A stretch of 44,561 nucleotides of DNA from assembly GCA_009377575.1 (NCBI GenBank), contig WHTU01000023.1, positions 1 to 44,561 on the forward strand, in the 5' to 3' direction. Under the pieces are notes generated by a model that had not been told where the DNA came from, searched no databases, and was given only the letters and a program-made list of their open reading frames with translations. This document shows positions 26,455 to 43,662 of this stretch, in pieces. This DNA is from Nitrososphaeraceae archaeon. Lineage in GTDB: Archaea; Thermoproteota; Nitrososphaeria; Nitrososphaerales; Nitrososphaeraceae. The first letter of the stretch is position 1, and each line of letters starts with the position of its first letter. Both the position numbers and the translations under genes were made by a program.

Positions 26455-26482
26455 GTTTATGAATTAAATCCAAGATTAAAAG

Positions 26483-26872: not shown

Positions 26873-26878
26873 AAGGAG
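26873..26878 (+). promoter_or_regulatory. Shine-Dalgarno site of nnrD
   Basis: AAGGAG sits seven bases before ATG 26886, within a leader of about 20 bases. Unlike many genes here, this one appears to use a Shine-Dalgarno site. Confidence 0.6.
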
Positions 26879-26885
26879 TCAGTCC

Positions 26886-27779
26886 ATGCCAAAGAGAGTT
26901 ATCATAAGTGACAGGCTTGCAAACCAGATAATGATGCCCAGATCCATGTCTTCTAGAAAAGGCGAAAATGGGATTATGCTCGTGGTTGGGGCAAGTAATA
27001 TATACCATGGCGCCCCGTTACTGAGTTCGTTGGCTGGACTCAGATCAGGGGTCGACCTTGTTTATACTGGGGTACCGCAACAAAACGCTTTAGCCCTACG
27101 GTCCTTTTCTCCGAACATTATCGTCCTTCCCTTTTCACATGATTCCTTGGATATTACTTCCGTAAAAGATCTCCTTCATGTTCTTCCAAAGAAACCAGAT
27201 GCAGCTGCCATAGGGATGGGATTGAACATAGCCAAGAGCAAAGCCCTGATTTATCTGATAAATGAGCTTAAAGGTATGCAAACCAAACTCCTACTTGATG
27301 CTTCTGCGTTGATCCCAGACGTTTTAACCCATATATCAGGAACCAACACAATAATCACTCCTCATCTTGGAGAATTCAAACGCGTGTTCTCGATGGAAGG
27401 CTCAATCCAGTCTAAAATCCAGGAGAAGACAAGCCTGGAAAAATTAACATCAATCGTGATTGAAATGGCAGAAAAATATGGCATTACGATAATTTTGAAG
27501 GGTGAATATAACATAGTAGCGAGCGGGATTGGCGCAAACATATCAATAATCAAACGTAGTACTCCAGCAATGACTGTGGGAGGAACTGGCGATGTTCTAT
27601 CAGGGTTGGTAACAGGTCTTCTCACCAAGTTGGATCCTTTTCGTGCCTCCATTATGGGCGTCTACCTTAATGGTCTAGCTGCATTGCAATCCTTTAGAAG
27701 GCTAGGCTTGCATCTCCTAGCAACAGATCTTATCGATGATTTGCCTTACGTCATGAAGAAATTTGATAAGATAGGGTAG
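26886..27779 (+). CDS. nnrD: ADP/ATP-dependent NAD(P)H-hydrate dehydratase
   Basis: This 297-residue protein is the stand-alone C-terminal domain of the YjeF family, a ribokinase-like fold that repairs hydrated NAD(P)H. Recognisable parts are MLVVGASNIYHGAPLLSSLAGLRSG, AAAIGMG, the TPHLGEFKR segment, ILKGEYNIV and the catalytic VGGTGDVLSGLVTG near the C terminus. The N-terminal epimerase domain (NnrE) often fused in bacteria is absent. Confidence 0.9.
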   Translation: MPKRVIISDRLANQIMMPRSMSSRKGENGIMLVVGASNIYHGAPLLSSLAGLRSGVDLVYTGVPQQNALALRSFSPNIIVLPFSHDSLDITSVKDLLHVLPKKPDAAAIGMGLNIAKSKALIYLINELKGMQTKLLLDASALIPDVLTHISGTNTIITPHLGEFKRVFSMEGSIQSKIQEKTSLEKLTSIVIEMAEKYGITIILKGEYNIVASGIGANISIIKRSTPAMTVGGTGDVLSGLVTGLLTKLDPFRASIMGVYLNGLAALQSFRRLGLHLLATDLIDDLPYVMKKFDKIG

Positions 27780-27982
27780 GTACTCTCTTTCTTAGGTTCT
27801 ATATTGTGAAATCTGGGATTTGATAATCTTGCGAATTAAGCTGATCCCTACCTAAAATTTCATTAATAGATAGTTTGTTAAATCAACGGATCTAATACCT
27901 GATTAATTAATTTGATCTTGACCGTAAGATGGCAGCAAAACTACCATTGTGAATTTTTGGCTCTGCCCTCACCTTGATATGA

Positions 27983-28084
27983 TCATTCTTTCATCATCTT
28001 TGGCATCACCCTGGACGTCCCTAGCCATGATCGGATTTGAGTGCTCAGTTCGTAATTATATGATGCATCATCTATGAGGTTCAT
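27983..28084 (-). CDS. Possible 33-residue peptide
   Basis: From ATG 28084 (minus) 33 codons read MNLIDDASYNYELSTQ and then a tryptophan-containing basic end (IRSWLGTSRVMPKMMKE). The composition is protein-like. A TTTAAAG sequence lies only about 13 bases upstream, too close for a leaderless promoter. Tentative. Confidence 0.28.
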   Translation of the reverse strand: MNLIDDASYNYELSTQIRSWLGTSRVMPKMMKE

Positions 28085-28407
28085 ATATCTTCTAACTTTA
28101 AACGCAAATAGAACTAGGATCGCCCATAGTTCAGAACTCGATCCTTACATTGAGTTAGCGACTCATTCATGATTTCTAGCTTTTATGTAGGCCTAGTTGA
28201 ATTTTTTCTCATAAATTATCTATTACGGCGTGCACCAATTTATTTTCTCAAAATCGAAATGTAATAATCCATTTTTTCTCTAGAGTTTTTTTCAAGCAAG
28301 TCAGTCACAATTAGAATATTCTAAGCATCCAATTCACCATGGTACAGATTTAACACGAATAGATTATATAATTGAAAAGACTAAATAACTTAGTTAAGGA
28401 ACGTCCA

Positions 28408-28893
28408 ATGAGTAATCAGCGCATCTTTGATCTATACCTCAAGTATAGGGAAGTTTTGTATTTCAACAAAAACCTTATAATTGCAGGCATTTCCTCCCTC
28501 CTGGTTGGCAGTCTAGTTACCCAACTTTACTCACAGGCAGGAGGAAGTAATCTCATAAATTCTTTCGTCTCAATAGCGACTGAGTACAGCGTATTCTTTC
28601 CAATCTTCGGAGTACTTTTCTATATTGACAATAGAAACAGGTACCTCGATCCGATTACGAAAAAGAGGGATTCCCACAAATTAAGGAGCGACATAAAGAA
28701 GCTTATAGCTACTTTTTCGGTTTCTGAAATAATTTATTCCACATCTAAGATTCTGATTCTTTATCAGCTTCTACAGCTAGCTCTAATATCCCCTTATCAG
28801 ACAGCTATTCTAAGTACTATTCTGGCATGGATGCTCTCCGCCATCACTATTAACATCATGATAAGAATAGTAAAACTAGTTAGAACCGACTAG
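28408..28893 (+). CDS. Membrane protein with about four helices, unknown
   Basis: From ATG 28408 the product is 161 residues (173 from TTG 28372). Hydrophobic helices are near 23-42, 53-72, 98-128 and 132-155. Between helices 2 and 3 is a charged cytosolic loop (YIDNRNRYLDPITKKRDSHK). A TATA-like TTATATAA at about 28363 and an AAGGA before the ATG support 28408. Similar small membrane proteins occur in Thaumarchaeota, but I know no function. Confidence 0.7.
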   Translation: MSNQRIFDLYLKYREVLYFNKNLIIAGISSLLVGSLVTQLYSQAGGSNLINSFVSIATEYSVFFPIFGVLFYIDNRNRYLDPITKKRDSHKLRSDIKKLIATFSVSEIIYSTSKILILYQLLQLALISPYQTAILSTILAWMLSAITINIMIRIVKLVRTD

Positions 28894-28995
28894 GTTTTGT
28901 GTGCGATAACTTTTCAACGAAGGTTGGCTTAACTATCCTTTCTCTTGCCTTCTTATCGTTAGGGTCGTAAGGGTAAATTTTTACTTCAGCTGAAC

Positions 28996-30255
28996 TCAGA
29001 AACCAGCTTCGATTGGGGAGGCTGGTTTCATTATTTCTCGTAAGAGAGTAGTAGCATATGAGCCCTTAGGTAATTTGAAACTAATAGATAGAGATCCGGA
29101 ATGACTAAATCCTTTACACCAAAGAACTGATTGTCTGAACCCACCTTTAGCACTAAGCTCCTGCATATCCTTTATATAGAAATCTTTTGGCACTAACCCC
29201 TTCTCTCTGAGAATTTTTTGTGATGTAGATTCAAATCGTCCTTTTCCGGCTTGAAATGAATATCCTACAAGTCGGATTGCGGGAAGCACTGTAGAAAAGG
29301 TATCACTGCTTGGGCTTAGTTTCCTGATCTTTCCAAGTACATCTTTACCTTCGATCTCAAAACACAAGTCACCATCCTTACATTTCGTTATATCCTCCCC
29401 ACCTGATAGAGATTCACTTATGCAAAGGTTGAAAATATAGGCTTGATAGGCCTGAACATATAGTCGTCGAATTCCGATGGGGATGGCCCTTAGTGCACGA
29501 ATATAGTCCCTCTTAGAGAGTAACGATCGTACTATTTCTCTCTCAATATCCATGCCTTTAGGCAATACGCTAATGAGTTTCTTGTAGTTACTTGGGTCCG
29601 ACAATTGTTCTCTGATTTCTCTGCTGTATGCGGTATCATACTTGGTGGTCTCAGTCAGGAGCAATTCTGATGCTCGTCTAAAATTCCCCTTAAGTATCTC
29701 CCTTCCGACGTAATGAGTTACCATCCTTTCACTCCCAAACCTCTGAAGACCATAGAAATTAGCTATCTTAGGAATTTCAGGCAAAAAATCGGTCAAATCT
29801 GCATGCTTGGTTTCAGCTATCAGAATAGAAAATTGATTTCCCCAAAGATCTGATTTTGAAAGTAAAGTACTACCATATCCTATAAGACAAATTTCTGTGT
29901 GGTAGGTCTTGATCCTTGGGGGAATACTTCTTGCCTTTTGAATTGTGGTGGCAAATTGCACTGTGTTTGCTTTGGCATCTTTGATACCGAGGACTCTTAG
30001 TTCCAACCTATGTTGGTCACGTATTTCGATGACAGCATGGTTGGAATCGATATTGTGTTTCTTTAGAATATAGATTGGAAAGCGATGAGTAGAGTTTAAA
30101 TTCTTCGACAAGCTTTCAAGGTATCGTTCATTTAAGATCTCCCTTACTAGAAAATCTTCGGGATTTCGTTTGATCTTTCCACCTATACCGCTAAACGCAG
30201 TACAATAGTGCTTAATACCAGCCTGTTGATCAATTGAAGGAACGGTCTTCTCCAA
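28996..30255 (-). CDS. truD: tRNA pseudouridine synthase TruD
   Basis: This 419-residue enzyme makes pseudouridine 13 in tRNAs (TruD/Pus7 family). The N-terminal KRNPEDFLVREI is the family motif, GIKDAKANTVQ holds the catalytic D93, and NFYGLQRFGSER is the third signature. The variable insertion typical of archaeal TruD follows. The start is TTG 30255 with a TATA-like GCTTAAGATA about 30 bases upstream. No co-transcribed gene is evident. Confidence 0.93.
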   Translation of the reverse strand: MEKTVPSIDQQAGIKHYCTAFSGIGGKIKRNPEDFLVREILNERYLESLSKNLNSTHRFPIYILKKHNIDSNHAVIEIRDQHRLELRVLGIKDAKANTVQFATTIQKARSIPPRIKTYHTEICLIGYGSTLLSKSDLWGNQFSILIAETKHADLTDFLPEIPKIANFYGLQRFGSERMVTHYVGREILKGNFRRASELLLTETTKYDTAYSREIREQLSDPSNYKKLISVLPKGMDIEREIVRSLLSKRDYIRALRAIPIGIRRLYVQAYQAYIFNLCISESLSGGEDITKCKDGDLCFEIEGKDVLGKIRKLSPSSDTFSTVLPAIRLVGYSFQAGKGRFESTSQKILREKGLVPKDFYIKDMQELSAKGGFRQSVLWCKGFSHSGSLSISFKLPKGSYATTLLREIMKPASPIEAGF

Positions 30256-30358
30256 AATATAGAATCCTCACTTCAGGGAAGATATCTTAAGCCCTATTAG
30301 TACTATTAATTGGGAAGGAGTTGATGACATAACAACTTGCATCAGAATAATTTGGTAA

Positions 30359-30679
30359 CTAAGACTTTTGAACATCCAATTTTACACATCTATAATATAT
30401 TGTTCCATCTATTGTGACATCTTCTATCCTTATCGAGCGGAGGTTAGCAATCCTACTAACCTTTTTATGCACAATAAAGCCAGACAAATTGTTTATTACG
30501 TCTTGAAAAGACAATTTAAGCATCAGGTAATTAATATCTTCTTCTCTTATGCCTGTAAACTCTGCAATTTCTTTCACCGAGAATGCCTTGTCGCTATTTC
30601 GACACAAGAAATCTACTACGATTCGATTTAGATCTTTATGCGCTTCGAATTCTGAGGCATCGATAGGCGGAGGAGCCAT
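30359..30679 (-). CDS. Winged-helix-like small protein
   Basis: From ATG 30679 the product is 106 residues. A helix-turn-helix region is visible (about 26-60: CRNSDKAFSVKEIAEFTG, REEDINYLMLKLSFQ) followed by a beta wing. The C-terminal part is strand-rich. The open frame runs upstream to 30907, but that region overlaps the PfkB gene; the TATA box at 30703-30710 fits a leaderless ATG 30679 exactly. It may be a transcription regulator. Confidence 0.72.
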   Translation of the reverse strand: MAPPPIDASEFEAHKDLNRIVVDFLCRNSDKAFSVKEIAEFTGIREEDINYLMLKLSFQDVINNLSGFIVHKKVSRIANLRSIRIEDVTIDGTIYYRCVKLDVQKS

Positions 30680-30702
30680 TAACGAGATAAATAAATTGAT
30701 AC

Positions 30703-30710
30703 TTATATAA
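30703..30710 (-). promoter_or_regulatory. TATA box for the winged-helix gene
   Basis: Minus-strand TTATATAAG is centred about 27 bases before ATG 30679 and decides the start of that gene. Confidence 0.6.
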
Positions 30711-30815
30711 CCGAATCTATAAGTATAATCTTTCTGATAGTCCCTGGAGATTTTATTGAATCTCTTTTTGTCTCCTAGTAACAGGTCCATTGCCCAGGTA
30801 AGTTGCAATGGGGTC

Positions 30816-31886
30816 CTACATATTGATCCTGTCCAGTAACTCACCAACCTCTTCAAGGGTTGGTGACTCAGCAAATTGATTTCGGATATAAAGCGAGGAT
30901 GCGGCATTTGCGAATGTTAACCTGTCTATTGGATCAAGACCAGAAAGATATGCAATGATATCAGCTGCGTCCCATACGTCTCCAGCTCCGGTCAGGGTTT
31001 TGATCTCGCTTCTGATTGCTGGAACTATCTCACTATCTTTCCCATTTGACCAAGCCGATCCTAATTTAGTATGAATGTCAATACTTATTCCGGTTTTCTT
31101 AGACAACTTTAATGCAGCGTCCTTAATTTCTTGTCTTGTATACGATTGCCAAGGTAATAAAGTACCTAATCCCAACGATGATCCAAGCGTGTTACATTCA
31201 TTTTCATTAATACTAAGCACATCTATTTGATTTGACAAGACTGCAAGGATTTCGACAAATTCTTCCTTCCGGAGTTGAAAATCAGCTGGATCAACGAAAT
31301 GTAGAGCCTTTGGCGAGCTTTCAAATGCGAATTTCATTAATTCAGTTCCTTTTAAGTTGCTTGCCCAATTCGCAACGATAACTGCGTCAGCTCTATTCAA
31401 TATATTGATATGATTGTGCGTGTTTATTCTTCCTTTGCCAAAGTCAGCATTGTCTCCAACGTCACTTAACATAACATTTACTCTGGGATCACCCTCCGCA
31501 TTTTCATAAAGTTCCATTGAAGTAGTTTTTCCTTGTTGCCCCTCAGCAATCATAACTTCTACATTTTCTCCGAATTTTTGAAAAGTGTTCTCGATCACAG
31601 ACTTCGCAATCCTATCTCCTACCGTGAAAAACGCTACTCTACCTCCCAGGTTAGCAATACTGTAAGCAATGTTGGCAGCATTTCCTCCTTTCCTATCGAC
31701 CGTGGGAATTCCACGTATACTTCCTCCTCCTACCCGAATCTTGTTTACCATCGACTGAAAAAACCCATTTTGTGATTCCAGCATTAAGATTCGATCTAAA
31801 AAGAAATCAGGCATAGTAACTATCTGATTCATATACGAATAATAGTTCTTGATCGCTGATGATATGTTCATTATACCTTTTTCCAA
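30816..31886 (-). CDS. PfkB-family carbohydrate/nucleoside kinase
   Basis: This 356-residue ribokinase-like protein carries RKGGNAANIAYSIANLG (66-81, substrate-binding signature) and LTGAGDVWDAADI (298-310, the GAGD motif with catalytic D303). The motif continues DVWDAA rather than the usual DxFxxG, so its subfamily is unclear. The substrate (sugar or nucleoside) cannot be set. TTG 31886 is the first start; ATG 31871 is an alternative. A TATA-like AATATAA near 31912-31920 lies upstream. Confidence 0.85.
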   Translation of the reverse strand: MEKGIMNISSAIKNYYSYMNQIVTMPDFFLDRILMLESQNGFFQSMVNKIRVGGGSIRGIPTVDRKGGNAANIAYSIANLGGRVAFFTVGDRIAKSVIENTFQKFGENVEVMIAEGQQGKTTSMELYENAEGDPRVNVMLSDVGDNADFGKGRINTHNHINILNRADAVIVANWASNLKGTELMKFAFESSPKALHFVDPADFQLRKEEFVEILAVLSNQIDVLSINENECNTLGSSLGLGTLLPWQSYTRQEIKDAALKLSKKTGISIDIHTKLGSAWSNGKDSEIVPAIRSEIKTLTGAGDVWDAADIIAYLSGLDPIDRLTFANAASSLYIRNQFAESPTLEEVGELLDRINM

Positions 31887-32085
31887 TGATACTCCTCATT
31901 CGAGAGAGGGTTATATTATTTGTCAACCCTCACAAAAAGGATAGCTTCTTTTTCATATTCTAAATACTACCAAACGTTAGTTAGTTTACTGATTCGTTGG
32001 TATATGCACTCAAATGGGATAGGATTAACAAACCTTGCTTGAATTCAGAGAAATCTTGAGATAGTCGTAAATTGCAAAGATTGTG

Positions 32086-32646
32086 CTATTCGCGAACCTT
32101 CTTCAACACCCTTTTTCCATTCGGCGAAGGAATAATCTCTATTTTTGCATCATCAAATTGCCTAGTTAGCTCCTTTCCGATGAATATTCTGTCCAAGCAA
32201 ATCGCTAATGCTGCTATCTCGGAATGCGGTTGATTTCCTATTGCTACGTTATAATCGGAAACCTGGTAAAGCTCTCTAGGGACCTTAGAAGCACCTACTA
32301 CCACGAGCAATTTATCGCAGCTGCGTAATTCATCTGCGACTTCATCTATATTTACACCGTACATAGTCAGATGTGCGATCTTTCCTCCTCCATTCTTCCA
32401 ATGCTTGATCATCGATTTCCAATTCTCAATTATTTCTATCTCAAAGTACCGCCCTCCCCATCGGTCTACAATCTCCTCCACTGTCGATCTAATGGATTTA
32501 TCCACTTCATTCATGAAAATTCGATCACAACCCAATGCTCTGGCCACCAAAGCTACGTGGGTAGTTACACGATCATCTCGGACAACTCTATGTCCTATTC
32601 TTAGAACCGATACCTTCAAATGAGATCTCCTAGCTAGATTATTCAT
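32086..32646 (-). CDS. tRNA 2'-O-methyltransferase Trm56
   Basis: This 186-residue protein is the archaeal Trm56 (SPOUT class) that methylates the ribose of C56 in the T loop. The N-terminal VSVLRIGHRVVRDDRVTTHVAL and ARALGCD segments are the family signature; LTMYGVNIDEV, VVVGASKVPRELY and AIGNQPHSEIAALAI form the trefoil-knot AdoMet site. ATG 32646 has a TATA-like TTTATG about 25 bases upstream. Upstream, divergently, is tRNA-Phe. Confidence 0.93.
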   Translation of the reverse strand: MNNLARRSHLKVSVLRIGHRVVRDDRVTTHVALVARALGCDRIFMNEVDKSIRSTVEEIVDRWGGRYFEIEIIENWKSMIKHWKNGGGKIAHLTMYGVNIDEVADELRSCDKLLVVVGASKVPRELYQVSDYNVAIGNQPHSEIAALAICLDRIFIGKELTRQFDDAKIEIIPSPNGKRVLKKVRE

Positions 32647-32975
32647 CTCCTACAAGGATTCCTCATAAACCTTTCTTAACGAAATCGTACGACTGAAAAT
32701 TTATGCTTTGATTTGCCTCTGTTGTAAACAACGTAGTCACAATCCAAGAGGGGACCTCCCGTTGAACTATGCGCTAAGAATTGATTGAATACATAGAATT
32801 AGACCAGTGTCCACCTAACTCGACCGACCGTAACAATACCTTGTCATGTAGCAAAAATTATACAGCAAATCCATCTGGCTGAGACTCACTTCAGACCACA
32901 AGTCAACCACTTAATTTGAACTACGCTGAGAACATGATAGGAATATATATGATTCATCCAAGAACAGTGTAACAT
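32647..32975. other. 329-base spacer between Trm56 and tRNA-Phe
   Basis: No gene is visible. The two ends carry promoters: the Trm56 TATA (minus, near 32665-32674) and GAATATATAT at 32941-32950, about 26-30 bases before tRNA-Phe. Confidence 0.5.
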
Positions 32976-33069
32976 GCCGTCGTAGCTCAGCCCGGGAGAG
33001 CACTCGACCAATCAATGTGGGGTGAAGCTGAAGACCGAGCTGTCGTGAGCTCAAATCTCACCGACGGCA
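32976..33069 (+). tRNA. tRNA-Phe (GAA) with a non-canonical 20-nt intron
   Basis: Acceptor GCCGTCG (32976-32982) pairs with CGACGGC (33062-33068), discriminator A 33069. The D arm GCTC/GAGC and T arm GTGAG/CTCAC are intact. Without splicing the anticodon stem fails. Removing 33007-33026 joins CTCG (33003-33006) to G (33027), giving a perfect stem CTCGG/CCGAG around CTGAAGA with anticodon GAA (33030-33032). The removed piece is a textbook bulge-helix-bulge: CACT pairs with GGTG, bulges CGA and AAG, inner stem CCA/TGG. This puts the intron between positions 30 and 31. The T loop starts with C (33050) instead of T. Confidence 0.9.
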
Positions 33070-33176
33070 TCATAGGTTGGGAAAATCCCTTTGTCAAAAC
33101 GAAATGGTAAAAAATACCCAACTTATTAGAGTATTAGATGCTCCATCAGCTGATAAGAAGGCTTTTTTGTAACCAT

Positions 33177-33296
33177 ATGGAATCATTTTCATTTCGGAAG
33201 TATAATGACTTTGACTTTCGTGAATACGATCAGTGTTCAAAATGTGGTAAAATTTTAAGACACCTGAAGGGGTTTGATGAAGACCTACGCGGTTAG
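33177..33296 (+). CDS. 39-residue CxxC protein, unannotated
   Basis: ATG 33177 opens 39 codons ending 11 bases before the next membrane gene. The product is polar with DQCSKCGKILRH near the C-terminal half and ends GFDEDLRG. A CxxC with a following His could bind zinc, perhaps as a dimer or with a partner. Composition and operon-like spacing support it. Confidence 0.55.
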   Translation: MESFSFRKYNDFDFREYDQCSKCGKILRHLKGFDEDLRG

Positions 33297-33307
33297 GTAA
33301 ATAAAAT

Positions 33308-33520
33308 ATGGCAAAATCAAACCTACAAACTTTGATTATCGTTTGGTGGGCAGGGGCGGCACTCGCAGGTATTTCATTCATCATCCCCTTATACGACATT
33401 TATCTCATCGTGGGGATAACTGGTTGGATTGTAATGTTAATCAGCACCTCTTTAATCATCTACATGATCAAGAAGATTAAGAAAGAGGACGGGAGTAAGG
33501 AGCTACATCAAAATGAGTAG
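33308..33520 (+). CDS. Two-helix small membrane protein
   Basis: This 70-residue protein is almost all membrane: helices at about 9-28 and 33-55, then a basic and acidic tail (KKIKKEDGSKELHQNE). It follows the 39-residue CxxC gene by 11 bases and is likely co-transcribed. Its stop abuts the stop of the convergent Lrp-type gene with no bases between. Function unknown. Confidence 0.62.
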   Translation: MAKSNLQTLIIVWWAGAALAGISFIIPLYDIYLIVGITGWIVMLISTSLIIYMIKKIKKEDGSKELHQNE

Positions 33521-33775
33521 CTAATGACTTTCTTTGCCTCCTTGCTCTTCTATGACTACTAATGTTACAGTGGACGTTATTCCTGGAATTTTTCTAATCT
33601 TGTTAGTTATAGTGTGATTCATAGCCTCCGTATTGTCAGATTTTACTTTCACGAAAACATCATGAACACCATATGTTCCTCTCACTTCTTTCACATCGGG
33701 CAAGTTAGATATTTCACTAATAATCCTTTCTTCCGATCCTAATGTACTATTTACCAATATGTACGCCGTAGGCAT
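33521..33775 (-). CDS. Lrp/AsnC-type stand-alone RAM (ligand-binding) domain protein
   Basis: This 84-residue protein is the RAM domain of Lrp/AsnC regulators without its DNA-binding part: AYILVNSTLGSEERIISEI, the VKEVRGTYGVHDVFVKV turn, and KIRKIPGITSTVTLVVIEE. Such proteins bind small metabolites such as amino acids and oligomerise, and may act with full-length Lrp proteins. A TATA-like element near 33800-33806 fits a leaderless ATG 33775. Confidence 0.87.
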   Translation of the reverse strand: MPTAYILVNSTLGSEERIISEISNLPDVKEVRGTYGVHDVFVKVKSDNTEAMNHTITNKIRKIPGITSTVTLVVIEEQGGKESH

Positions 33776-34022
33776 TTAGATTTCTTCCATAGCCTTTAGT
33801 ATTTTAGTGTTGTTGGCAAAAAATTGGCTGCGTGATTGTGCCCAATTTTGCGTAACTGAGCCGTCGTGAATTGTCTTTGTCAACAGCAACAATATTACAG
33901 ACAAATTCTATGCGACAGAATGCAAGATAGGTCTTTGCCATTGGGTAGATATTGCACGGGTGAGACAATAATTCTGCAAATTCCTTCTCAGATTAACTTT
34001 AATTCGAGATTGAAAAAGAATT

Positions 34023-34030
34023 CATATAAG
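34023..34030 (+). promoter_or_regulatory. TATA box for the 34053 LEA14-like gene
   Basis: CATATAAG is centred 26 bases before ATG 34053, giving a leaderless transcript. Confidence 0.6.
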
Positions 34031-34052
34031 AACATAGAAGTGATCTCATCAG

Positions 34053-34637
34053 ATGACCAAGAGAAAGACCATTTACATTTCTTCAGCCGTTGCAATAGCA
34101 GTAGTTGCTGGGATTACTTATTGGGGATTTGCTTACTACAATGAGGGCGTTGATCGACAGGATCCTGGCCCGGCCGTCCAAAGTCCTGCATCCTCGGAAA
34201 TACAATCAGTGGATCGAAACGACAACCCTATTGTCATTTCAATTAAGAATATTACGGTTGAACCAACCGATAGTTCACATTCCAATTTGCAAATTGCTTT
34301 TGACGCTCATAATCCCAATCGGGGAACTATTATCCTTGAGTCAATTCAATACAAAGTCCTAGTTAACAACAGCGAAGTTGCATCAGGCGAAATTGGTGAG
34401 AGGTTGGAAGGTTTTCTTGAGTCTCAGGACAATGTCTTTCCGGTAATTGGCTCTGGGAATGTGACTCTAAAAGATACTGATCTACTGGCTCGGAACAGCG
34501 AAAATTCAGACCTCTGGAATCGCTTGAGTATGAACCAGATAGATTCTTATCAAGTGAATGGGACATATTCCTTTAGTCAGACATCAACGCTACAAGCCAG
34601 CGGAGGAGACCGACCCTTTACCTTAAATTTTCCTTGA
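34053..34637 (+). CDS. LEA14/WHy-like exported protein
   Basis: This 194-residue protein begins with a basic KRK then a membrane anchor (about 6-28), a short Pro/Ser linker and an extracytoplasmic LEA14-like domain: LQIAFDAHNPNRGTIILESIQYKVLVNN is the typical NPN core. It resembles the 15027 protein in layout but they share little obvious sequence. The start is leaderless. The stop abuts the stop of the convergent Cas4-like gene. Confidence 0.78.
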   Translation: MTKRKTIYISSAVAIAVVAGITYWGFAYYNEGVDRQDPGPAVQSPASSEIQSVDRNDNPIVISIKNITVEPTDSSHSNLQIAFDAHNPNRGTIILESIQYKVLVNNSEVASGEIGERLEGFLESQDNVFPVIGSGNVTLKDTDLLARNSENSDLWNRLSMNQIDSYQVNGTYSFSQTSTLQASGGDRPFTLNFP

Positions 34638-35297
34638 TTAAGTAGATTCATCTTTTGATTTGCCAAACAGGCTTTCTATAGAGAAGCTGGTTTCCTTTCT
34701 TTCTATCATATAACATCTCCCATAATACTTGCAAGTCATGCATGATTCAGAAGGCTCAATAATAGGTACCCGTCTTTCCTTAAGCAACGTACTTAGAACC
34801 CTTGCTCTTCTTATCAATTCCTCGAACATTTTCGCACTTTTCGCTACTAGGAATTCTGACGTTCTGCCATCTCCTAGGACATATATTAAAATTCCCTCCG
34901 CCTTATCAAATGAATAGAGGCAAGCATTGAGGTACAATAGATCTTGTGGTTTGGGAGAACCTGGAAAGGAATCTGTTATGTGCATCCTAACGACAAGCTC
35001 CTTTTCTAGAATGATATCAGCTGCAAGTACGAGAGTCAGATTATCTACCTTGTACTCCGATTCTATATTTTCGAACGAGTGTCTGAATCCGTACGTCAAG
35101 AGAAATTGGAACAATTCTGTTGAATTTGAGGTAATTGGGTCAACACGTTCATAGTATGAAAGCCTTGTACATTGTGATGCCTCATATGCATAAATTCTAG
35201 TCGGATCCTCATTAATTCTTTTTAACTTTTTATGCCTATCATTCATGTAGGCTACTATTAGCTTTCTAACATCTCTGCCACCTAACATCTTATTCAT
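34638..35297 (-). CDS. Cas4/Dna2-like PD-(D/E)XK Fe-S protein, likely catalytically degenerate
   Basis: This 219-residue protein has the Cas4 frame: an early Cys43 in SQCTRLSYYE, the GxxH motif (G70, H73), Asp94 in LAADIILEKE, a Q118xxxY122 helix (QDLLYLNACLY), and three C-terminal cysteines 186, 189 and 195 (SCMTCKYYGRC). Together the four cysteines would hold a 4Fe-4S cluster. The (D/E)xK motif, expected near 102-105, reads VVRM, so the lysine and acid are missing. There is no cas gene or repeat array nearby. It could be a structural or DNA-binding relative rather than a nuclease. Confidence 0.7.
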   Translation of the reverse strand: MNKMLGGRDVRKLIVAYMNDRHKKLKRINEDPTRIYAYEASQCTRLSYYERVDPITSNSTELFQFLLTYGFRHSFENIESEYKVDNLTLVLAADIILEKELVVRMHITDSFPGSPKPQDLLYLNACLYSFDKAEGILIYVLGDGRTSEFLVAKSAKMFEELIRRARVLSTLLKERRVPIIEPSESCMTCKYYGRCYMIERKETSFSIESLFGKSKDEST

Positions 35298-35430
35298 AGT
35301 ATGTTGTAAGAGTATTTGAAATTATTATGCGTGAAATTAGGCCAAGTTTAAAATTTTTCCGTAATTTGAGCTTATTTGGTTAGGTTTAAATATTTGAATG
35401 CAGATGATATAGCTGTTTTTATATAAGATA

Positions 35431-36336
35431 ATGAAAAGTTCAATAAATTGTCCCGTATGCAGTCGAAGCAATCAAAATATTGCAGATCCTGATTCTGGCG
35501 AAATTATTTGTGGTAATTGTGGTACTGTCATATTAGAGAATGTCGAGGAAAACAGAGCCGAATGGAGAGCCTTTAGTGTAGAGGAAGCCAATCACAGGAG
35601 CAGGACTGGAATGCCAACGTCGTTGGCCAGACACGATATGGGATTGGCCACCGTGATAGGTCGATCTGACAAAGATGCGAGTGGGAAAGGGTTAGACGCA
35701 GTAGTCCGATCTACTATGGATAGATTAAGAGCTTGGGATTTTAGGACACAAGCATATTCCCCTGCTGATAGGAATCTTCGACATGCCTTCAGTATTCTGG
35801 AAAGAATAAGAGATAAGCTTGGCTTATCGGAGGCAGCTATCGAGAAAACCGCTTATATTTATAGAAAAGCTCAAGAAAAGGGATTGGTTCGAGGAAGAAC
35901 CATACCATCAGTGCTCTCTGCAGCAGCTTACATAGCTTGTAGAGAAATGGGCATTTCAAGAACCCTTAGCGATATTTCCGATCTCACAAATATTAAGAGA
36001 AAAGAATTAGCAAGGACTACCCGGTTGCTCATCCTAGAATTGGATTTGAAGGTTCCTATGGTCGACCCTATAAAATGCATTGTAAAAGTGGCCAATAAGA
36101 CGAGGCTGAGTGAACGAACAAAACGTGAAGCGATGAGTATCATGCAGAATGTCACCAAGCACGGAATTTCGGCAGGGAAGGATCCAATGGGATTGGCTGG
36201 CTCAGTGTTGTATTTATCGTCCAAAAACGTAGGAGAGACCATCACTCAAATGGACATAGCGGAAGCTGCCGGCGTAACAGAGGTCACAATTAGAAATCGG
36301 TTCAAGGACCTCAAGAGTAGATTGGAATTGAACTAG
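35431..36336 (+). CDS. tfb: Transcription initiation factor B (TFB)
   Basis: This 301-residue TFIIB homologue has an N-terminal zinc ribbon (C7, C10, C27, C30), the B-reader and linker region (about 40-100, with EWRAFS), and two cyclin-like repeats (about 105-195 and 205-300), the second ending in VTEVTIRNRFKDL with the DNA-binding helix. It bridges TBP and RNA polymerase at promoters. The upstream region has TATA-like sequences at 35385-35394 and 35418-35425. Confidence 0.95.
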   Translation: MKSSINCPVCSRSNQNIADPDSGEIICGNCGTVILENVEENRAEWRAFSVEEANHRSRTGMPTSLARHDMGLATVIGRSDKDASGKGLDAVVRSTMDRLRAWDFRTQAYSPADRNLRHAFSILERIRDKLGLSEAAIEKTAYIYRKAQEKGLVRGRTIPSVLSAAAYIACREMGISRTLSDISDLTNIKRKELARTTRLLILELDLKVPMVDPIKCIVKVANKTRLSERTKREAMSIMQNVTKHGISAGKDPMGLAGSVLYLSSKNVGETITQMDIAEAAGVTEVTIRNRFKDLKSRLELN

Positions 36337-36582
36337 TCTTATTGGCAAGGCCTCACTTTCTGTTGCCGTTTGATAATATACGAATGCGATTTTATTAGAA
36401 TGATTTTGATAAACATATGTCTTACGTGTTCGTGGAAGAATCGTTTCATATATGCTGAACTCTGAAAATGTCGTCTTTTCTGATGTCCAGAAACTTTCAA
36501 CTCTTTAATATTGGCAATTTTCTGACAAGATCTAGTACCGAAAGATGGATCATTAGCGTGTTACCGCAATAGAATCCATAGG

Positions 36583-36657
36583 TGCGAAGTGCGGGATTTG
36601 AACCCGCGATCCCGAGCTTGGGAAGCTCGTACCTTAACCAGTCTGGGCTAACTTCGC
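36583..36657 (-). tRNA. tRNA-Gly (CCC)
   Basis: On the minus strand the acceptor GCGAAGT (36657-36651) pairs with ACTTCGC (36590-36584), discriminator A 36583. The anticodon stem CGAGC/GCTCG encloses TTCCCAA, anticodon CCC. The T arm is GCGGG-TTCAAAT-CCCGC with variable loop GGATC. There is no intron or encoded CCA. A TATA-like ATTATAT near 36683-36690 lies about 30 bases upstream. Confidence 0.94.
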
Positions 36658-36929
36658 GATATTTTATTTAGCTCATGTAAGACAATATAATTGTGATTGG
36701 CCTCTAAGGATTTACCTTTCAAGGTCTTTGTATAGACCATCAGGTTGACCGATTGTAGGCTTCCTAAGACTATGCTTCACATAAATCTAACACTGTAACA
36801 CAACCTCACATTATCGATTTTGAAGTGGTTTGAAGATTTTAACCCGATCATATCGGATTGAAAGGAATATTACAACCTGAAATTGGTGGGAATACAAGTC
36901 CATCTATTATCTACTCGAACTTCCTATTT

Positions 36930-37244
36930 CTAAATATCAACAAAGAGTGTATCACCTTCGATTACGATTCTATATGATCCTATTGATTCAAGAAGTTCCT
37001 GGAACCAAATCAATTGTCCAGTTGTCAGGTCCCATTTAGCTCCATGCCATGGGCAAATGAGCTGCTTATCGTGTAATTCGCCTTCGTGCAGTTCTGCGCC
37101 TTCATGTGTGCAAATATTGCCCGTTGCAAAATAGCTTCCCTGAATGTTTGCAACTAGGATTTCTTTGCCCCCGACTGTAACGCTAGTAAACTTACCCTCT
37201 TGTATGTCCGATCTTTTGCCGACGAGAACTCTAGGCACACACAT
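36930..37244 (-). CDS. Rieske-type [2Fe-2S] ferredoxin
   Basis: From ATG 37244 the product is 104 residues (108 from TTG 37256). Both ligand pairs are present: CTH in NICTHEGAEL and CPWH in LICPWHGAKWDL. The soluble fold and the final TLFVDI strand match ferredoxins that serve oxygenases. The TATA-like TTATTTAA at 37261-37268 fits the ATG. It is distinct from the Rieske protein at 16419, which lacks the CPWHGA pattern. Confidence 0.88.
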   Translation of the reverse strand: MCVPRVLVGKRSDIQEGKFTSVTVGGKEILVANIQGSYFATGNICTHEGAELHEGELHDKQLICPWHGAKWDLTTGQLIWFQELLESIGSYRIVIEGDTLFVDI

Positions 37245-37517
37245 CTCAAATCCCAAAGCTTTATTTAACTTCTGATGGGTGATCGCATTAATTTAGTTGG
37301 CCTAAATTTTCATATTTTAATTCAGCTTGTAGATAGGAAACGTTACCTAGTTACTAATTTACAGTGATGGACATAGCGGGGATCTCGAAGCCCAATATTG
37401 ACGTATTTTCACACCAAACAAAAATTGTGAAAGCCATTAGTCGGCATTGAATTTGATCATGAACCCACTATCATACAAGTATTGTATTAGACTAATCGAA
37501 CTTAATTAGTGGATTGC

Positions 37518-37991
37518 TTATTCTTTCAAAAGTGCAATGATCGGGTCCCAATCTAAGTGTTGGAACGACACCGGGTCTTTAAGAGGATACTTAACCCATC
37601 CTTTCACGACCATGAACTTGTATTTTTTAGTATCTCTGTTTACTGTAAAATTTAGTCTGAGTAAGGTTCCCCATCTTTTCTTTTCTTGCCCGATATTGAT
37701 TATTTCATTGAAGGGGATATCTATGTTTTTATCGCTGTCGGCCAAATCGTTCTGAAGGTCTATTTCATTATAAGGTTCTATTGATAATAAAACAGATTCC
37801 CCATCTTTAAACCGTCTGAGCTGCCTCAGTGAATATTCCTCATGAACATTGTACTTCATTTTCGTCTTCATTATGAATGCGATGCGCATATTCGTTATCA
37901 CCAGCATTCCCTCCTTGCCTCGTTTCATGAATCCTTCTTCTTGGCCCCAGACCCACATTAGGTGATACTTTATGTTCTCTATCATTTCCAA
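37518..37991 (-). CDS. GRAM/PH-like protein, unknown
   Basis: This 157-residue protein has a strand pattern beginning after EEGFMKRGKEGMLVITNMRIAFIMK, the usual start of GRAM or bacterial PH-like domains, then SLRQLRRFKDGESVLLSI and a C-terminal helix (DPIIALLKE). Such domains bind lipids or proteins. Start is TTG 37991 or ATG 37985. No neighbour suggests a role. Confidence 0.68.
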   Translation of the reverse strand: MEMIENIKYHLMWVWGQEEGFMKRGKEGMLVITNMRIAFIMKTKMKYNVHEEYSLRQLRRFKDGESVLLSIEPYNEIDLQNDLADSDKNIDIPFNEIINIGQEKKRWGTLLRLNFTVNRDTKKYKFMVVKGWVKYPLKDPVSFQHLDWDPIIALLKE

Positions 37992-38135
37992 TCTATCACG
38001 TAGCGGAATTAATTGTCATAAGAATTTGGATTCTGACCAGATATACTCAGATCGGCCAAAAAAATGAGTGTAAACTCTATAAGTCGCTCAGGTTCAGCTA
38101 AAAAATTAGAAAAAAAAATTTAGGCCTTTACGACT

Positions 38136-38429
38136 CTAACCTTCTTCCCAGCCCTTTGTGAATAACGCATTCTTCTTGAGTGGAATTGGTTGACCTGGAG
38201 TATATTCCATAGGTCTCATCCAGAAGATTGCCTTTGTTGGACAAACGCCTATACAGGCCCCATCAGAGATACATCTTTCAGGATAAAAGACGAATGCTTT
38301 TCCTCTCTTCCATCCTTCAACTGGTTTTACTCTTAAGACATCAGGACCTAGCGCTGTACATATTTCTACGCAAAGAGCACATCCTATACAGTGTTGTTCA
38401 CTAACATCTGGAATTATTGCGACTGGCAT
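38136..38429 (-). CDS. Two-cluster (7Fe-type) ferredoxin
   Basis: This 97-residue protein has one full cluster motif (C14, C17, C20, C24) and a second with C53, C59 and C63 where the expected cysteine at 56 is Asp (CISDGAC). A [4Fe-4S] plus [3Fe-4S] or Asp-ligated cluster is therefore likely. The C-terminal YTPGQPIPLKKNALFTKGWEEG is common in thaumarchaeal ferredoxins. A TATA-like GTTTAAATA near 38459-38470 precedes the ATG. It is divergent from tatC. Confidence 0.87.
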   Translation of the reverse strand: MPVAIIPDVSEQHCIGCALCVEICTALGPDVLRVKPVEGWKRGKAFVFYPERCISDGACIGVCPTKAIFWMRPMEYTPGQPIPLKKNALFTKGWEEG

Positions 38430-38612
38430 CTATATCACTAAATGACGTTTCATGCTGAAACTATTTAAACACTATGCCAAATCTATAACAGCGATATAAA
38501 ATTGAAATTATTAACGGCTTTCTCAGCATAGGAAGTAAATGGTTCAACGCTGGTAACTGATTTTGGCACAATTATATTAGTAAGTTGTGGAATTAACCCA
38601 TCTGCGATAGAT

Positions 38613-39518
38613 TTGCCGGTGGAAATGACTATTGGCGAGCACCTTGACGAATTACGTCTCAGACTAATACGTGTGGTAGTGGCCATGCTTGTCATAACAG
38701 CATTCTGCCTCAGCTTCGGCATAACTACTATTCACTTGTCATTTGTACCAGGCACTGGAATGATTACTTTGAGCGAAGTGCCTCACGAAGGCCATCAAGT
38801 CACAACAGATTCAATTGATATCACGATTTACTATCCTTACTATAATCCGTTTGATAATGTTGCTATACAGCTCACGACATTCATGAAGAACACGCTACTT
38901 CCCCCTGAGGTTTCATTGATTCAAACTGCACCAGGACAAGCATTTTTCGCTCAAGTGTTTATTGCCATTTTGCTGAGTATATTGATTTCAATGCCTTTAA
39001 TAATAAGAGAAATGTATGCATTCATATCACCTGCCTTTGGCAAATCGACCAAGAGCGTCCTAGCGGCCAAGACCTTTGTTCCGACAATCCTTCTCTTTAT
39101 TATTGGGGTAATTTTCTCCTACCTCCTAGTCATTCCCTTTATCCTAAATTTTCTTTATGCCTATGGTGAATCTATCGGTGTTGCCACCTTCTTTAACATA
39201 AATGAGTTTTTCCCCTTCGTGCTCCAGCTTTTGTTGGCATTCGGACTTGCTTTTGAACTCCCGGCCATAATGTATGCACTCTCTTTGATGGGTGTTGTCG
39301 ATGCGGCATTTTGGAAAAAGAACTTCAGGTATGCCGTAATAATCTTCGTGATATTTGGCGCAATCATCACCCCAGATGGAGGTGGTATTAGTATGTGGCT
39401 TGTAGTGGCCCCTATGGTTGTTCTTTACCTGGTTGGTTTATTGGTCATAAAGAAATCTAGAAATGAAAACAATCGCCTTGCCAATTCAGGAGCAGAGGTT
39501 CACAGGGCAGGATATTAA
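38613..39518 (+). CDS. tatC: Sec-independent translocase subunit TatC
   Basis: This 301-residue membrane protein has the TatC signature EHLDELRLRL at its start and six membrane helices. A large outside loop follows the first helix (about 40-105, with Thr/Tyr/Asn-rich stretches), longer than in bacteria. TatC binds twin-arginine signal peptides for export of folded proteins such as cofactor enzymes. TTG 38613, GTG 38619 and ATG 38625 are all possible starts. It is followed by tatA. Confidence 0.92.
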   Translation: MPVEMTIGEHLDELRLRLIRVVVAMLVITAFCLSFGITTIHLSFVPGTGMITLSEVPHEGHQVTTDSIDITIYYPYYNPFDNVAIQLTTFMKNTLLPPEVSLIQTAPGQAFFAQVFIAILLSILISMPLIIREMYAFISPAFGKSTKSVLAAKTFVPTILLFIIGVIFSYLLVIPFILNFLYAYGESIGVATFFNINEFFPFVLQLLLAFGLAFELPAIMYALSLMGVVDAAFWKKNFRYAVIIFVIFGAIITPDGGGISMWLVVAPMVVLYLVGLLVIKKSRNENNRLANSGAEVHRAGY

Positions 39519-39584
39519 TGTTGCCATTTTCGTCCACCAGAATTAACACTTAAATGCAGAAGGGTCAAAATAGTACATAGATCG

Positions 39585-39926
39585 ATGATCGCTTCAAGCC
39601 ATTTGATGCAAGCTTTTGGAGTTGGGGGATTGGAGTGGGTCTTTATTATAATTATTGTAGTTGTCTTGTTCTTCGGAGTAAAGAAGATCCCGGAAATTGC
39701 ACGATCTGTCGGAAGGGCTTCTTCAGAGTATCAGAAGGCCAAAATTCAGGCAAAGCAGGAGTTGAACCAGATGAATGCTAAGGATGGTATAGATAAACCG
39801 ACTATTGATCGAGAGAAGCTTGAGTCTATTGCAGACACGTTGGGAATAGATTCTACAAATAAGAATGATGCGGAGCTCCGTGAGGCTATCGACCTTGCAA
39901 TCAGTAAAGAAAGGCACAAGGTGTAG
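39585..39926 (+). CDS. tatA: Sec-independent translocase subunit TatA
   Basis: This 113-residue protein has one membrane helix (about 16-34, WVFIIIIVVVLFFG), the VKKIPEIARSVGRASSEYQ amphipathic helix that follows, and a long polar tail. The FG hinge and KKIPE are TatA-type. It lies 66 bases after tatC, so the pair is the minimal Tat system; no TatB is present. It may translocate Rieske-type or other cofactor proteins, but no twin-arginine signal was checked in this window. Confidence 0.92.
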   Translation: MIASSHLMQAFGVGGLEWVFIIIIVVVLFFGVKKIPEIARSVGRASSEYQKAKIQAKQELNQMNAKDGIDKPTIDREKLESIADTLGIDSTNKNDAELREAIDLAISKERHKV

Positions 39927-39994
39927 CAACAGAAGCTTGTACACGTTATCATTCTAGAATAATCAGCATTTTGGTTTTTAGACCAACAAAAACG

Positions 39995-40002
39995 CTTTTA
40001 AG
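39995..40002 (+). promoter_or_regulatory. TATA box upstream of the asnB leader ORF
   Basis: CTTTTAAG is centred about 25 bases before ATG 40022, so the main transcript should start at that ATG and asnB would be the second ORF on it. Confidence 0.55.
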
Positions 40003-40021
40003 GGATTGAGAGTAACCTATT

Positions 40022-40087
40022 ATGACCGGAACTGAATTAGCTCCTAGCGTTGTGTATTTGGAACTGAGTTGGTCCTCGTCGATTTAG
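40022..40087 (+). CDS. Candidate leader peptide (21 residues) before asnB
   Basis: ATG 40022 opens 21 codons (TELAPSVVYLELSWSSS in the middle) and ends ten bases before the asnB ATG. The TATA box places transcription start at this ATG. It is out of frame with asnB. It could couple or regulate asnB translation, or be incidental. Confidence 0.4.
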   Translation: MTGTELAPSVVYLELSWSSSI

Positions 40088-40097
40088 TGATAATAGT

Positions 40098-41795
40098 ATG
40101 TGTGGAATAGTTGGTATTTTGAGTAAGACCGGAGAAAATGTAGTGCCTTTAGCAGAATCTATGCTTTCATGCATAGCATGTAGAGGCCCAGACGGTGCAG
40201 CAATCACCTCGGGGGAGCAGACAGTCCAAACTGATTCTGTAAGTGACCTTAGAAAGCATCCTATGTCAGACAGCTCCACTGCATTGGGACATGTGAGACT
40301 AGCAATTGTAGGAGGAACGTGTGGACAGCAACCATTTAGAAGTTGTGATGGTAGGTTTATCGTAGAACATAATGGCGAAATCTATAACTACAAGAAGTTA
40401 AGGAACAGACTTGAAAGTTCACACAGATTAGTTTCTCAAACTGACAGCGAAGTAATAGCACACATTTTTGAGGACAATTATGCTAAGACTAGAGATCTTC
40501 AAGATGCCATAAAAAAGACAGTCTCTGAATTGGATGGTGTGTACGCCATTGTGATAAGAGATGAAGAAACTGGTGAGATTGCTCTGGTCAGAGACGTTAT
40601 GGGTGTCCGCCAGCTCTACTATGGTCAGAACTCGCAATTAGTGGCATTTGCATCTGAAAGAAAGGCGCTGTGGAAGATCGGCCTAAAGGAGCCAACCCTA
40701 AGAATTCATCCAGGCTCTGTTTTAATTATTATGCCAGATGGTTCATTTGGTGAGCAGCAGAAGGTTATAAGGAATCCTGTGAGCAATCAAAAGATTCGGT
40801 ACAAGACGCTAAGCTCTGCAATTGAAGCGTATAAAAGGGCTTTAGTTTCATCCATGAAAAAGCGTACTCAAGATTTTGATCGAATAGGCATCATATTCTC
40901 AGGAGGGATTGATAGTGTGATCATTGCCTGGCTTGCAAAGAAGATGGTTCGTGAAGTTATATGTTATACCGGTGGGGTGGAAGGCTCAAGTGATATAGCC
41001 TTTGCCAGAAAGATTGCAAAAAGACTGAATTTGAAATTAAGAGTTAATGAATTAACCCACAATGAAGTAGAAGAAATGATCCCCGAGGTAATTAATACAA
41101 TCGAACACACAAATGCAGGTCAAGTAGAGGTTGCTATCCCTGTATATGCGGCTGTAAAACTAGCTCATGAAGATGGCATCAAAGTGATGTTTTCTGGGCA
41201 AGCAGCAGATGAGCTATTTGGAGGATACTCATGGTACAGCACTATAGTAAGAGATGGTGGAGGGTATGCTGGTTTACGTCATTACATGAATGAGGACATA
41301 CAACTGCTGTATAAGGAGACCCTGGAGAGAGAGGATAAGATTACCATGGCTCACAGTATTGAAATGCGAGAGCCCTTTCTTGACTTAAAATTGATCAGAC
41401 TTAGTATGAAGATAGATCTACGGTTGAATGTCAAAGGTGTGTCAGATGCATTTGGCAAACACGTACATAGAAAGCTTGCCCAAGAATTGGGCATTCCTAG
41501 AGATATTGCTTATCGTTCCAAAGAAGCAGCTCAACATGGATCAGGTATCCATCAAGTGATAGACTTGATAGCGCGAAAACATGGTTTTGATGAATCAACC
41601 ATCTCTGCAAAGTACCTAGACCTACTCGAATCTAGGGAGAGGGTAGGAAGTTCTCAGAGGTATGGATACCTTTTCGAGAACGAGAAGAAAAAAATGTGGA
41701 TTGCTGAACCACATGTTCAGATGTATCTTGACAGCATTTCTAAGCTGTTGCCAGCACTTGAACAAAATGTTGTCGCAAAAAGGAAATCCTTATAG
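40098..41795 (+). CDS. asnB: Asparagine synthase (glutamine-hydrolysing)
   Basis: This 565-residue protein is a class II glutaminase plus synthetase. The N-terminal nucleophile is C2 in MCGIVGIL, and RGPDG and the VEHNGEIYN segment line the glutaminase site. The synthetase half has the FSGGIDS P-loop (about 271-277) and FSGQAADELFGGY. It makes asparagine from aspartate and glutamine; related enzymes build other amides. There is no Shine-Dalgarno before the ATG and a possible leader ORF upstream. Confidence 0.93.
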   Translation: MCGIVGILSKTGENVVPLAESMLSCIACRGPDGAAITSGEQTVQTDSVSDLRKHPMSDSSTALGHVRLAIVGGTCGQQPFRSCDGRFIVEHNGEIYNYKKLRNRLESSHRLVSQTDSEVIAHIFEDNYAKTRDLQDAIKKTVSELDGVYAIVIRDEETGEIALVRDVMGVRQLYYGQNSQLVAFASERKALWKIGLKEPTLRIHPGSVLIIMPDGSFGEQQKVIRNPVSNQKIRYKTLSSAIEAYKRALVSSMKKRTQDFDRIGIIFSGGIDSVIIAWLAKKMVREVICYTGGVEGSSDIAFARKIAKRLNLKLRVNELTHNEVEEMIPEVINTIEHTNAGQVEVAIPVYAAVKLAHEDGIKVMFSGQAADELFGGYSWYSTIVRDGGGYAGLRHYMNEDIQLLYKETLEREDKITMAHSIEMREPFLDLKLIRLSMKIDLRLNVKGVSDAFGKHVHRKLAQELGIPRDIAYRSKEAAQHGSGIHQVIDLIARKHGFDESTISAKYLDLLESRERVGSSQRYGYLFENEKKKMWIAEPHVQMYLDSISKLLPALEQNVVAKRKSL

Positions 41796-41798
41796 ACT

Positions 41799-41825
41799 AA
41801 CGGTTTTAGTCATTTTGCGACCGTT
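41799..41825 (+). terminator. Possible hairpin terminator after asnB
   Basis: AACGGT (41799-41804) pairs with ACCGTT (41820-41825) across a 15-base loop, a few bases after the asnB stop, then TTTCATTTG. Weak T-run, so tentative. Confidence 0.35.
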
Positions 41826-42035
41826 TCATTTGTCTGATGAATATACTTGAGAGTAATAAACGGAGTTTAGACCTTTAAAGGCATCAGTATTTGAGATTGT
41901 GCTGAAAGGCGACATACCAACTAGCGTTTACAAATGATGGGTTATCACGTATATGTTATTACTACAGGCCTACTCTGTTACTCTTTTCGGTTAGGTGTGT
42001 CGAAAGCAGGGCAGTGAATCTATTTGCGGATGCTT

Positions 42036-42926
42036 TTATTTTGCATCGACAGAACTTGTTCTATAATTGCAAGTGAAACTATTTTTCATTAATTTAGAAG
42101 CGATAAATGGTGATATCACCAAAGTAGGGATACTTATCAAAAGGAACAGGGTCTGAAACGGAGCTAGAACCGATACAGCTACCCCTGATCCAAATCCTAC
42201 AAAGAAAGAAATTAGACTTCCTGCACATGTTGGGCATCCTACAAATAGCCCAGCAGTAATACCTATTCCGCTCACTACCGAAAGTTTTTTGTTCTTATTC
42301 TGACTTCTTGACATACTAAAGAAAGAGACCATCAATGATAGATTAAATCCGACCATTATTGAAATAGCGACAGAAAGTACAAAATTGACTGGAATTATTA
42401 GTATCGTGAAAAACTCAGTTAGATACACAGACAACATAGGAACGTATCCAGGTAGATTACAGCAGGGCGTAACAATAAATGAAGGAGTCACAATTCCATT
42501 CCCTGACATGTTAGGTTCGTATAGCAGTATTTGTGACAAGAATGCAAAGCAAATCCAGTAAACCACAGAAGATATTACCATAATTCTCCAATATTTGATA
42601 TCAGTGAATGTAATCATCAAGTAAGAACCTAAAGGGCTCCCCCTTGAGTAAGCTCTAGCCGTTTCAGCTCTAAAAATCAGATAAATTCCATAGATACAGA
42701 TAGGGATGGATACAAAAGTCCAAGACAATACGATGTTTGCAAGATTCATGAGTCGAGCGCTCACTTCTAACGATTGATTGTCTTGGGGGCTGGTTAGACT
42801 ACTATAAATTACAAATATCAATACCAGAGATAAACTACTTAACAAAGCTACCCTTACACCTCGATTTCGGAGCTCCGTGTAATTCTTGACGTCAAACATC
42901 ATAGAAGAAATTCCATGCTGTGACAT
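42036..42926 (-). CDS. Multi-pass membrane protein with CC and CPTC motifs
   Basis: This 296-residue protein has about six membrane helices (near 25-45, 65-85, 113-133, 165-195, 215-238 and 250-275). Two cysteine motifs lie near membrane segments: C155-C156 in TPCCNLPG and C231-x2-C234 in VGCPTCAG. The CC-x2-P arrangement resembles the metal-binding helix of mercury transporters, and CxxC could bind copper or act in redox. It is not a member of a family I can name. Role in metal or membrane redox is inference. Confidence 0.72.
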   Translation of the reverse strand: MSQHGISSMMFDVKNYTELRNRGVRVALLSSLSLVLIFVIYSSLTSPQDNQSLEVSARLMNLANIVLSWTFVSIPICIYGIYLIFRAETARAYSRGSPLGSYLMITFTDIKYWRIMVISSVVYWICFAFLSQILLYEPNMSGNGIVTPSFIVTPCCNLPGYVPMLSVYLTEFFTILIIPVNFVLSVAISIMVGFNLSLMVSFFSMSRSQNKNKKLSVVSGIGITAGLFVGCPTCAGSLISFFVGFGSGVAVSVLAPFQTLFLLISIPTLVISPFIASKLMKNSFTCNYRTSSVDAK

Positions 42927-43133
42927 TAATCTGTATCGAGCTTCCTTTGCGGATCCAATTTCAGAAACAAAATCTTAACCTCCTAACTTAAACTCACTTC
43001 ATGGAAAAAAATTGTAGATACCGCTCTCATCAGGGGCCATCCAATGATGTACTCGTAACCCCCAGAATTGTGTTTTTATTTCAGTATTAAATGGAATACG
43101 GTCAACATAGTATACCTCGCAATGAATAGATAC

Positions 43134-43424: not shown

Positions 43425-43662
43425 ACGGTATAATTTTACTAAAGCCTGATCGATGTATTAAATGCTTTTGGTACTGCGTTTCAAGCTAGTTCGGTAATTC
43501 GGTAATTCAGACCTGCCAGTCAGGATGACTTGCCTAGAATTAAAGACTATGAAGTGCTATGCAAGAGTGATGAGAAGTTATGATTAAACATAACGCTATT
43601 TAGAACCAACCTAAACTCTGTACCTCTATCCGTGTTATTGTTGAGAGATGTCTTCTAAACGA

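Follow-up and report, generated by a model that had tools for sequence, protein, structure and literature searches.

The gene at positions 34638 to 35297 of the window (the whole stretch of 44,561 nt analysed here, from a Nitrososphaeraceae archaeon) most probably encodes a Cas4-derived pseudonuclease of ammonia-oxidising archaea, retained as an Fe-S module for binding rather than catalysis. The alignments described below give good support to loss of the usual nuclease motif, and Fe-S binding by the family is predicted as likely. The window protein itself probably does not cut DNA, since the residues usually needed for cutting have been lost in it and in its relatives. The gene is characterized as follows:

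34638..35297, minus strand: predicted Cas4-fold pseudonuclease of family A, 219 aa; ATG-started ORF, assigned by homologue searches, alignment and model

The stretch pointed out in an earlier, sequence-only reading of this DNA is thus a complete ORF; translation may in truth begin at M4 (base 35288), given that an equivalent ML or MM begins 13 of 24 family A rows compared. A search with the single protein found matches in 27 of 61 genomes, its own included. The A3 profile (33 rows; L083, which has a stop codon, and L101 were not in its input) matched 136 of the 200 order-level genomes; at class level it matched 119 of 150 and at phylum level, at E 1e-5, 66 of 250. Compared with three congeners (L002, L003 and L004), the window gene gave dN/dS values of 0.081, 0.086 and 0.096; the range over all six pairs was 0.08 to 0.24. 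By these values (0.08–0.10 versus the congeners) the gene is under purifying selection, and because of them, together with the matches in 27/61 genomes and in 136/200 of the order, the ORF is judged real and no chance frame.

The predicted model has the RecB/Cas4 PD-(D/E)XK fold. Two models were made, the first from a 22-row alignment free of active homologues (pLDDT 77.6) and the second from a 56-row alignment (pLDDT 87.1) whose active homologues may pull it towards their own fold. The best PDB match of both was Sulfolobus Cas4 SSO0001 (first model: Foldseek E 7.8e-10, Z 15.0, rmsd 3.8, 179 residues aligned; second model: Z 16.8, rmsd 3.2, 180 residues aligned). Next came, among others, a chain of a Cas4/Cas1/Cas2 structure (Z 15.2), a type I-C Cas4 (13.3) and human EXO5 (12.4), with AdnA-AdnB (Z 11.3) and Dna2 (9.2) further down. 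Sequence searches with the single protein gave no matches in the PDB and only sub-threshold ones in NCBIfam and Pfam; its score against Cas_Cas4 (PF01930) was 16 bits, under the curated cut-off of 22.7. All 22 members of alignment A1 (22 rows) matched Cas_Cas4 at E 0.1 or better, no other Pfam family appeared in more than two of them, and the PADLOC Cas4 profile matched the window protein at E 9e-7. Descent from a Cas4-type nuclease, proposed earlier from the letters, is supported by the fold match, the Pfam matches of A1 and the PADLOC match.

The window protein shares with stand-alone and other Cas4 proteins (PF01930; SSO0001; PDB 4ic1) the fold, the length, the four cysteines with C-x2-C-x5-C spacing and the Asp of motif II. 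It differs from them in having neither (D/E)xK nor QhxxY, nor, by a gap-dependent alignment, the His, and in coming from a genome without a cas1 match. The part of PMC4176176 available to us gives the cysteines and active-site residues of SSO0001 and Pcal_0546; the spacing of SSO0001 Cys188/191/197 is identical to that of Cys186/189/195 here.

To compare residues we used an alignment of 135 rows: 87 of family A, 17 of family B, 11 of a class outgroup, 5 of the family labelled f47 and 15 from elsewhere in the phylum. The 31 outgroup rows comprise the last three groups; f47 and the other phylum members together represent 20 of the 22 phylum-level matches outside the class (G266 and G328 were left out). 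Six of 121 locus rows were dropped, five as duplicates of A and one as a B row shorter than 150 aa. The positions of interest are listed below:

35169..35171, minus strand: Cys43, first Fe-S cysteine; Cys in 87/87 A, 17/17 B and 31/31 outgroup rows

35082..35084, minus strand: Arg72, in the column of the catalytic His; Arg in 71/87 A rows, His in 16/16 class-outgroup and f47 rows; gap-dependent

35016..35018, minus strand: Asp94, retained acidic residue of the putative former active site (motif II); Asp in 85/87 A, 14/17 B and 31/31 outgroup rows

34980..34988, minus strand: R104-M105-H106, in place of (D/E)-x-K (motif III); all 31 outgroup rows have Glu and Lys, none of the 104 A and B rows has D/ExK

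34920..34934, minus strand: Y122-L-N-A-C126, standing where Q-h-x-x-Y is expected; all 31 outgroup rows have Gln and Tyr; in A, Tyr122 in 79/87 and Cys126 in 79/87

34713..34742, minus strand: Cys186-x2-Cys189-x5-Cys195, C-terminal Fe-S cysteines; in 87/87 A, 16/17 B (one row gapped) and 31/31 outgroup rows

The sequence-only reading had named cysteines 43, 186, 189 and 195, and all four are kept in each of the 87 distinct family A rows; its Asp94 is likewise in place. It had also pointed to VVRM at 102–105 where the (D/E)xK pair should lie, and R104-M105-H106 do occupy those columns, the loss extending over the whole family. The R104 column, Glu in every outgroup row, holds L26 R18 I17 K9 N9 V6 G1 D1 in A. 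The H106 column, Lys in every outgroup row, reads R46 E23 V7 K3 Q3 I3 H1 Y1 in A and R12 K5 in B. D/ExK occurs in none of the A or B rows; the family A row of locus L182 has Asp first and Ile third.

Two other motifs of that reading fared less well. The letters of its GxxH are present (GFRH at 70–73), but the column of the catalytic His falls on R72, with H73 adjoining, so that the motif as read is probably off register; the placement depends on gaps, and the column is not reliable in the 15 rows of other phylum members. The literal H73 is His in 15 of 87 A rows. For QxxxY the letters QDLLY stand at 118–122, but the Gln and Tyr columns fall, in a gapless aligned stretch, on Y122 and C126, and this motif too was probably read off register. 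The first column is Gln in 13/17 B rows and the second Tyr in 16/17, and because these residues stay, family B keeps, as aligned, more of the site than A does. C126 amounts to a fifth cysteine conserved in most of A, and N124, between the two columns, is invariant in all 104 A and B rows.

Family B (loci L155–L157, L159 and L164–L177) is a second Cas4-like paralogue of ∼250 aa without D/ExK, told from A by its longer open frame and its matched range; a WG-x-WARGKWRELK tail ends five of six B rows compared. Among the 200 genomes listed for the order, 114 had A only (two as fragments), 18 B only, four both and 64 neither. The genus labelled g2 had no match in any genome listed in the order and class searches; not every relative, then, requires the family. 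A contig scan gave thaumarchaeal titles for 77 of the best 80 of 172 relatives, the others being titled ‘bacterium’, ‘archaeon’ and ‘Archaeon MnTg01’; judging from such titles (Nitrososphaera, Nitrosopumilus, Nitrosarchaeum and others), the carriers would be ammonia oxidisers.

In a tree of 67 rows, including 39 of the 87 A rows, the split between outgroup and A plus B had a support of 100/100 and the grouping of B one of 92/100; A was not recovered, forming one clade in 42% of 200 bootstrap trees. L182 fell with B; its branch is long, as is the one leading to the outgroup. Loss of D/ExK would most simply be ancestral to A and B, several losses being possible as well; the unrecovered A and the two long branches do not let one loss be firmly separated from several. 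A likely course of events would start from a stand-alone, non-CRISPR Cas4-like nuclease, whose catalytic Glu and (by alignment) His may have been lost before A and B diversified. The Lys would have disappeared from most rows, after which Gln and Tyr, mostly still present in B, would have gone from A too. We infer that the protein still binds an Fe-S cluster and cannot cleave DNA; the Fe-S lobe and the remodelled helix (Y122-N124-C126) may bind a partner, a protein being more likely than bare DNA.

Neighbourhoods were compared at 121 loci, with distances measured from stop-to-stop frames. Five of the 92 A loci duplicate a gene sequence found at another, hence a second set of counts over 87 distinct loci. 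Flanks stop at contig ends, and absences of neighbours are therefore lower bounds. Two neighbours in the window are of note as context:

34053..34637, plus strand: conserved neighbour of 194 aa, convergent with the gene; without Pfam match

37518..37991, minus strand: neighbour of 157 aa; no Pfam family, single match in its own genome

Relatives of the 194-aa gene, the most constant neighbour, lie within 5 kb of A in 81/92 loci (76/87 distinct), mostly convergent; we rejected it as a functional clue because it is convergent and has no Pfam match. Relatives of the 157-aa gene lie within 5 kb of family B in 12/18 loci. The window also has a Rieske ferredoxin (PF00355) at 36930–37256 and, by eye only, a two-cluster ferredoxin at 38136–38429 and TatC/TatA-like genes at 38613–39926. 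Elsewhere in the same genome (L032; G000:C314) there is another Cas4-like protein; its 274 aa include the letters VVELK and RQLLYY, and Pfam gave nothing for it at 0.001. Three of the 11 class-outgroup loci have the gene near an SMC_N-type ATPase; in L147 and L149 the intact-motif homologue is divergent from the ATPase (Pfam run on L147), which is followed by two small genes without Pfam matches.

A dead nuclease could instead be an Fe-S protein that binds DNA ends or a repair scaffold, still gripping DNA and recruiting repair enzymes, and among the alternatives we consider this possible, though distinctly less probable than the reading above. The Cas4, EXO5, AdnA and Dna2 fold matches are in its favour, as is a match to 7mr1_C (chain C of RecBCD entries), which we take to be RecC with its dead nuclease-like domain; at Z 6.8 and rmsd 4.5 this match is weak, and a Z below 8 may reflect a common arrangement only. 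That domain presumably resembles the present family in having a PD-(D/E)XK-type fold whose active site is missing, with the difference that RecC is part of a large complex. Invariant Arg161 and nearly invariant Arg160 in A3 (numbering of a 216-aa row) would also suit DNA binding, and, according to the part of PMC4176176 available to us, DNA end binding in AddAB requires the Fe-S cluster. Against it, the median net charge of the core is −1 in A and −8 in B, with no basic shift from the −2 of the class outgroup, and no repair gene was recognised among the named neighbours (many neighbours are unnamed). From the same medians, there was no gain of basic surface of the kind seen in TP1, the nucleocapsid protein of TTV1. 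According to the available part of PMC4625639, TP1 derives from a Cas4 that was inactivated, and its motif III Glu is replaced by Arg, as it is in the window protein; TP1 is viral, basic, split and without an Fe-S cluster, whereas the family here is cellular, not basic and keeps its four cysteines.

A second alternative, which we hold to be unlikely, is an Fe-S adaptor tied to the function of the ammonium transporter Amt and of PII (GlnK). Amt lies within 5 kb of B in 16/18 loci (families f1, f2 and f9, among which gene order and strand vary) and of A in 45/92 loci (42/87 distinct), compared with 0/11 in the class outgroup. PII is near B in 10/18 loci. In L051 and L052, Amt, PII and A stand in tandem on one strand, with 55 bases between PII and the open frame of A, and in L182 Amt is upstream of A on the same strand. 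Of 40 genomes, 33 carry A, 13 of them with Amt within 5 kb (0.4 expected), and 13 carry B, 11 of them with Amt that close (0.18 expected); the expected values assume random placement, the genomes are not independent and the rows are related. These counts, read by hand from search tables (a split Amt gene in G064 was counted once), are post hoc, Amt having been seen among the neighbours before it was counted, and many of the loci represent one inherited arrangement. Moreover, the window gene is on a contig other than those of its genome's three Amt genes, the A genes of three complete g12 genomes (G015, G027 and G032) are far from Amt, and genes for PII are common, the genome of the window alone giving 11 PII-family matches. 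The linkage is a new lead, not proof. More doubtful still is the fuller proposal that a CRISPR-type nuclease fold, disarmed in an ancestor of the ammonia oxidisers, would now serve ammonium uptake together with Amt and PII as an Fe-S sensor or adaptor, A and B being two versions of it.

That the protein is still a nuclease, with a rebuilt active site, appears improbable, although some observations count against a dead site. Asp94 is kept, and a wholly dead site would not need it; the former Lys column still holds Lys in 3/87 A and 5/17 B rows, and Glu (23/87) or Arg (46/87) in most of A. Another acid-x-Lys pair in the active site had been named as what would contradict loss of catalysis, and by sequence such pairs do recur in A: E174-x-176 with Lys in 70/87 rows (Lys or Arg in 82/87) and D143-x-145 with Lys in 45/87. 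But the window protein reads ERR at 174–176 and DGR at 143–145; in the secondary structure of the second model the former follows a long helix and the latter is in a turn between two strands, so that neither is on the motif strand. Besides, the lost Glu has no single substitute in A, where L, R, I, K, N, V, G or D takes its column, and Gln and Tyr are gone from A.

Two further explanations are barely credible. A Cas4 of CRISPR adaptation, as such genes are annotated, would fit the Cas4 profile matches, but not the motif loss or the surroundings: a search of 25000–44561 for direct repeats at least 20 bases long found none, and the draft genome (99% complete, 380 contigs) had no Cas1 match in a search positive in 9 of 14 genomes as control, in agreement with the earlier statement that no CRISPR locus is nearby. 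Decay into a pseudogene, which lost catalytic residues and absence from some genera might suggest, is at odds with the low dN/dS, the cysteines conserved throughout A and the presence in 136/200 genomes.

Such genes have probably been met before under other names. The part available to us of a 2019 study (PMC6863869) places stand-alone Cas4 genes, labelled CRISPR-associated exonuclease, downstream of thaumarchaeal atp operons, links them to virus-driven exchange of these operons and draws HA-Amt (high-affinity) in the same figure as the atp-adjacent Cas4. Judged by position, these are probably the same genes as ours; the active-site loss found here goes unmentioned in that part. Cas4 is counted among the evidence for CRISPR in sponge-associated thaumarchaea in the available portion of PMC6697440. 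In the literature searched, a limited set mostly without subscription journals, we found no report of an inactive or pseudo-Cas4 in these archaea. The casposon Cas4 (PMC6563490) and N. evergladensis (PMC4084955), as far as the available text of each goes, have no bearing on the window gene. The familiar gene label ‘Cas4’ would thus hide a family-wide pseudonuclease, and if the atp-adjacent genes are pseudonucleases, the link of stand-alone Cas4 to virus-driven atp exchange proposed in PMC6863869, as given in its available part, would lose its footing.
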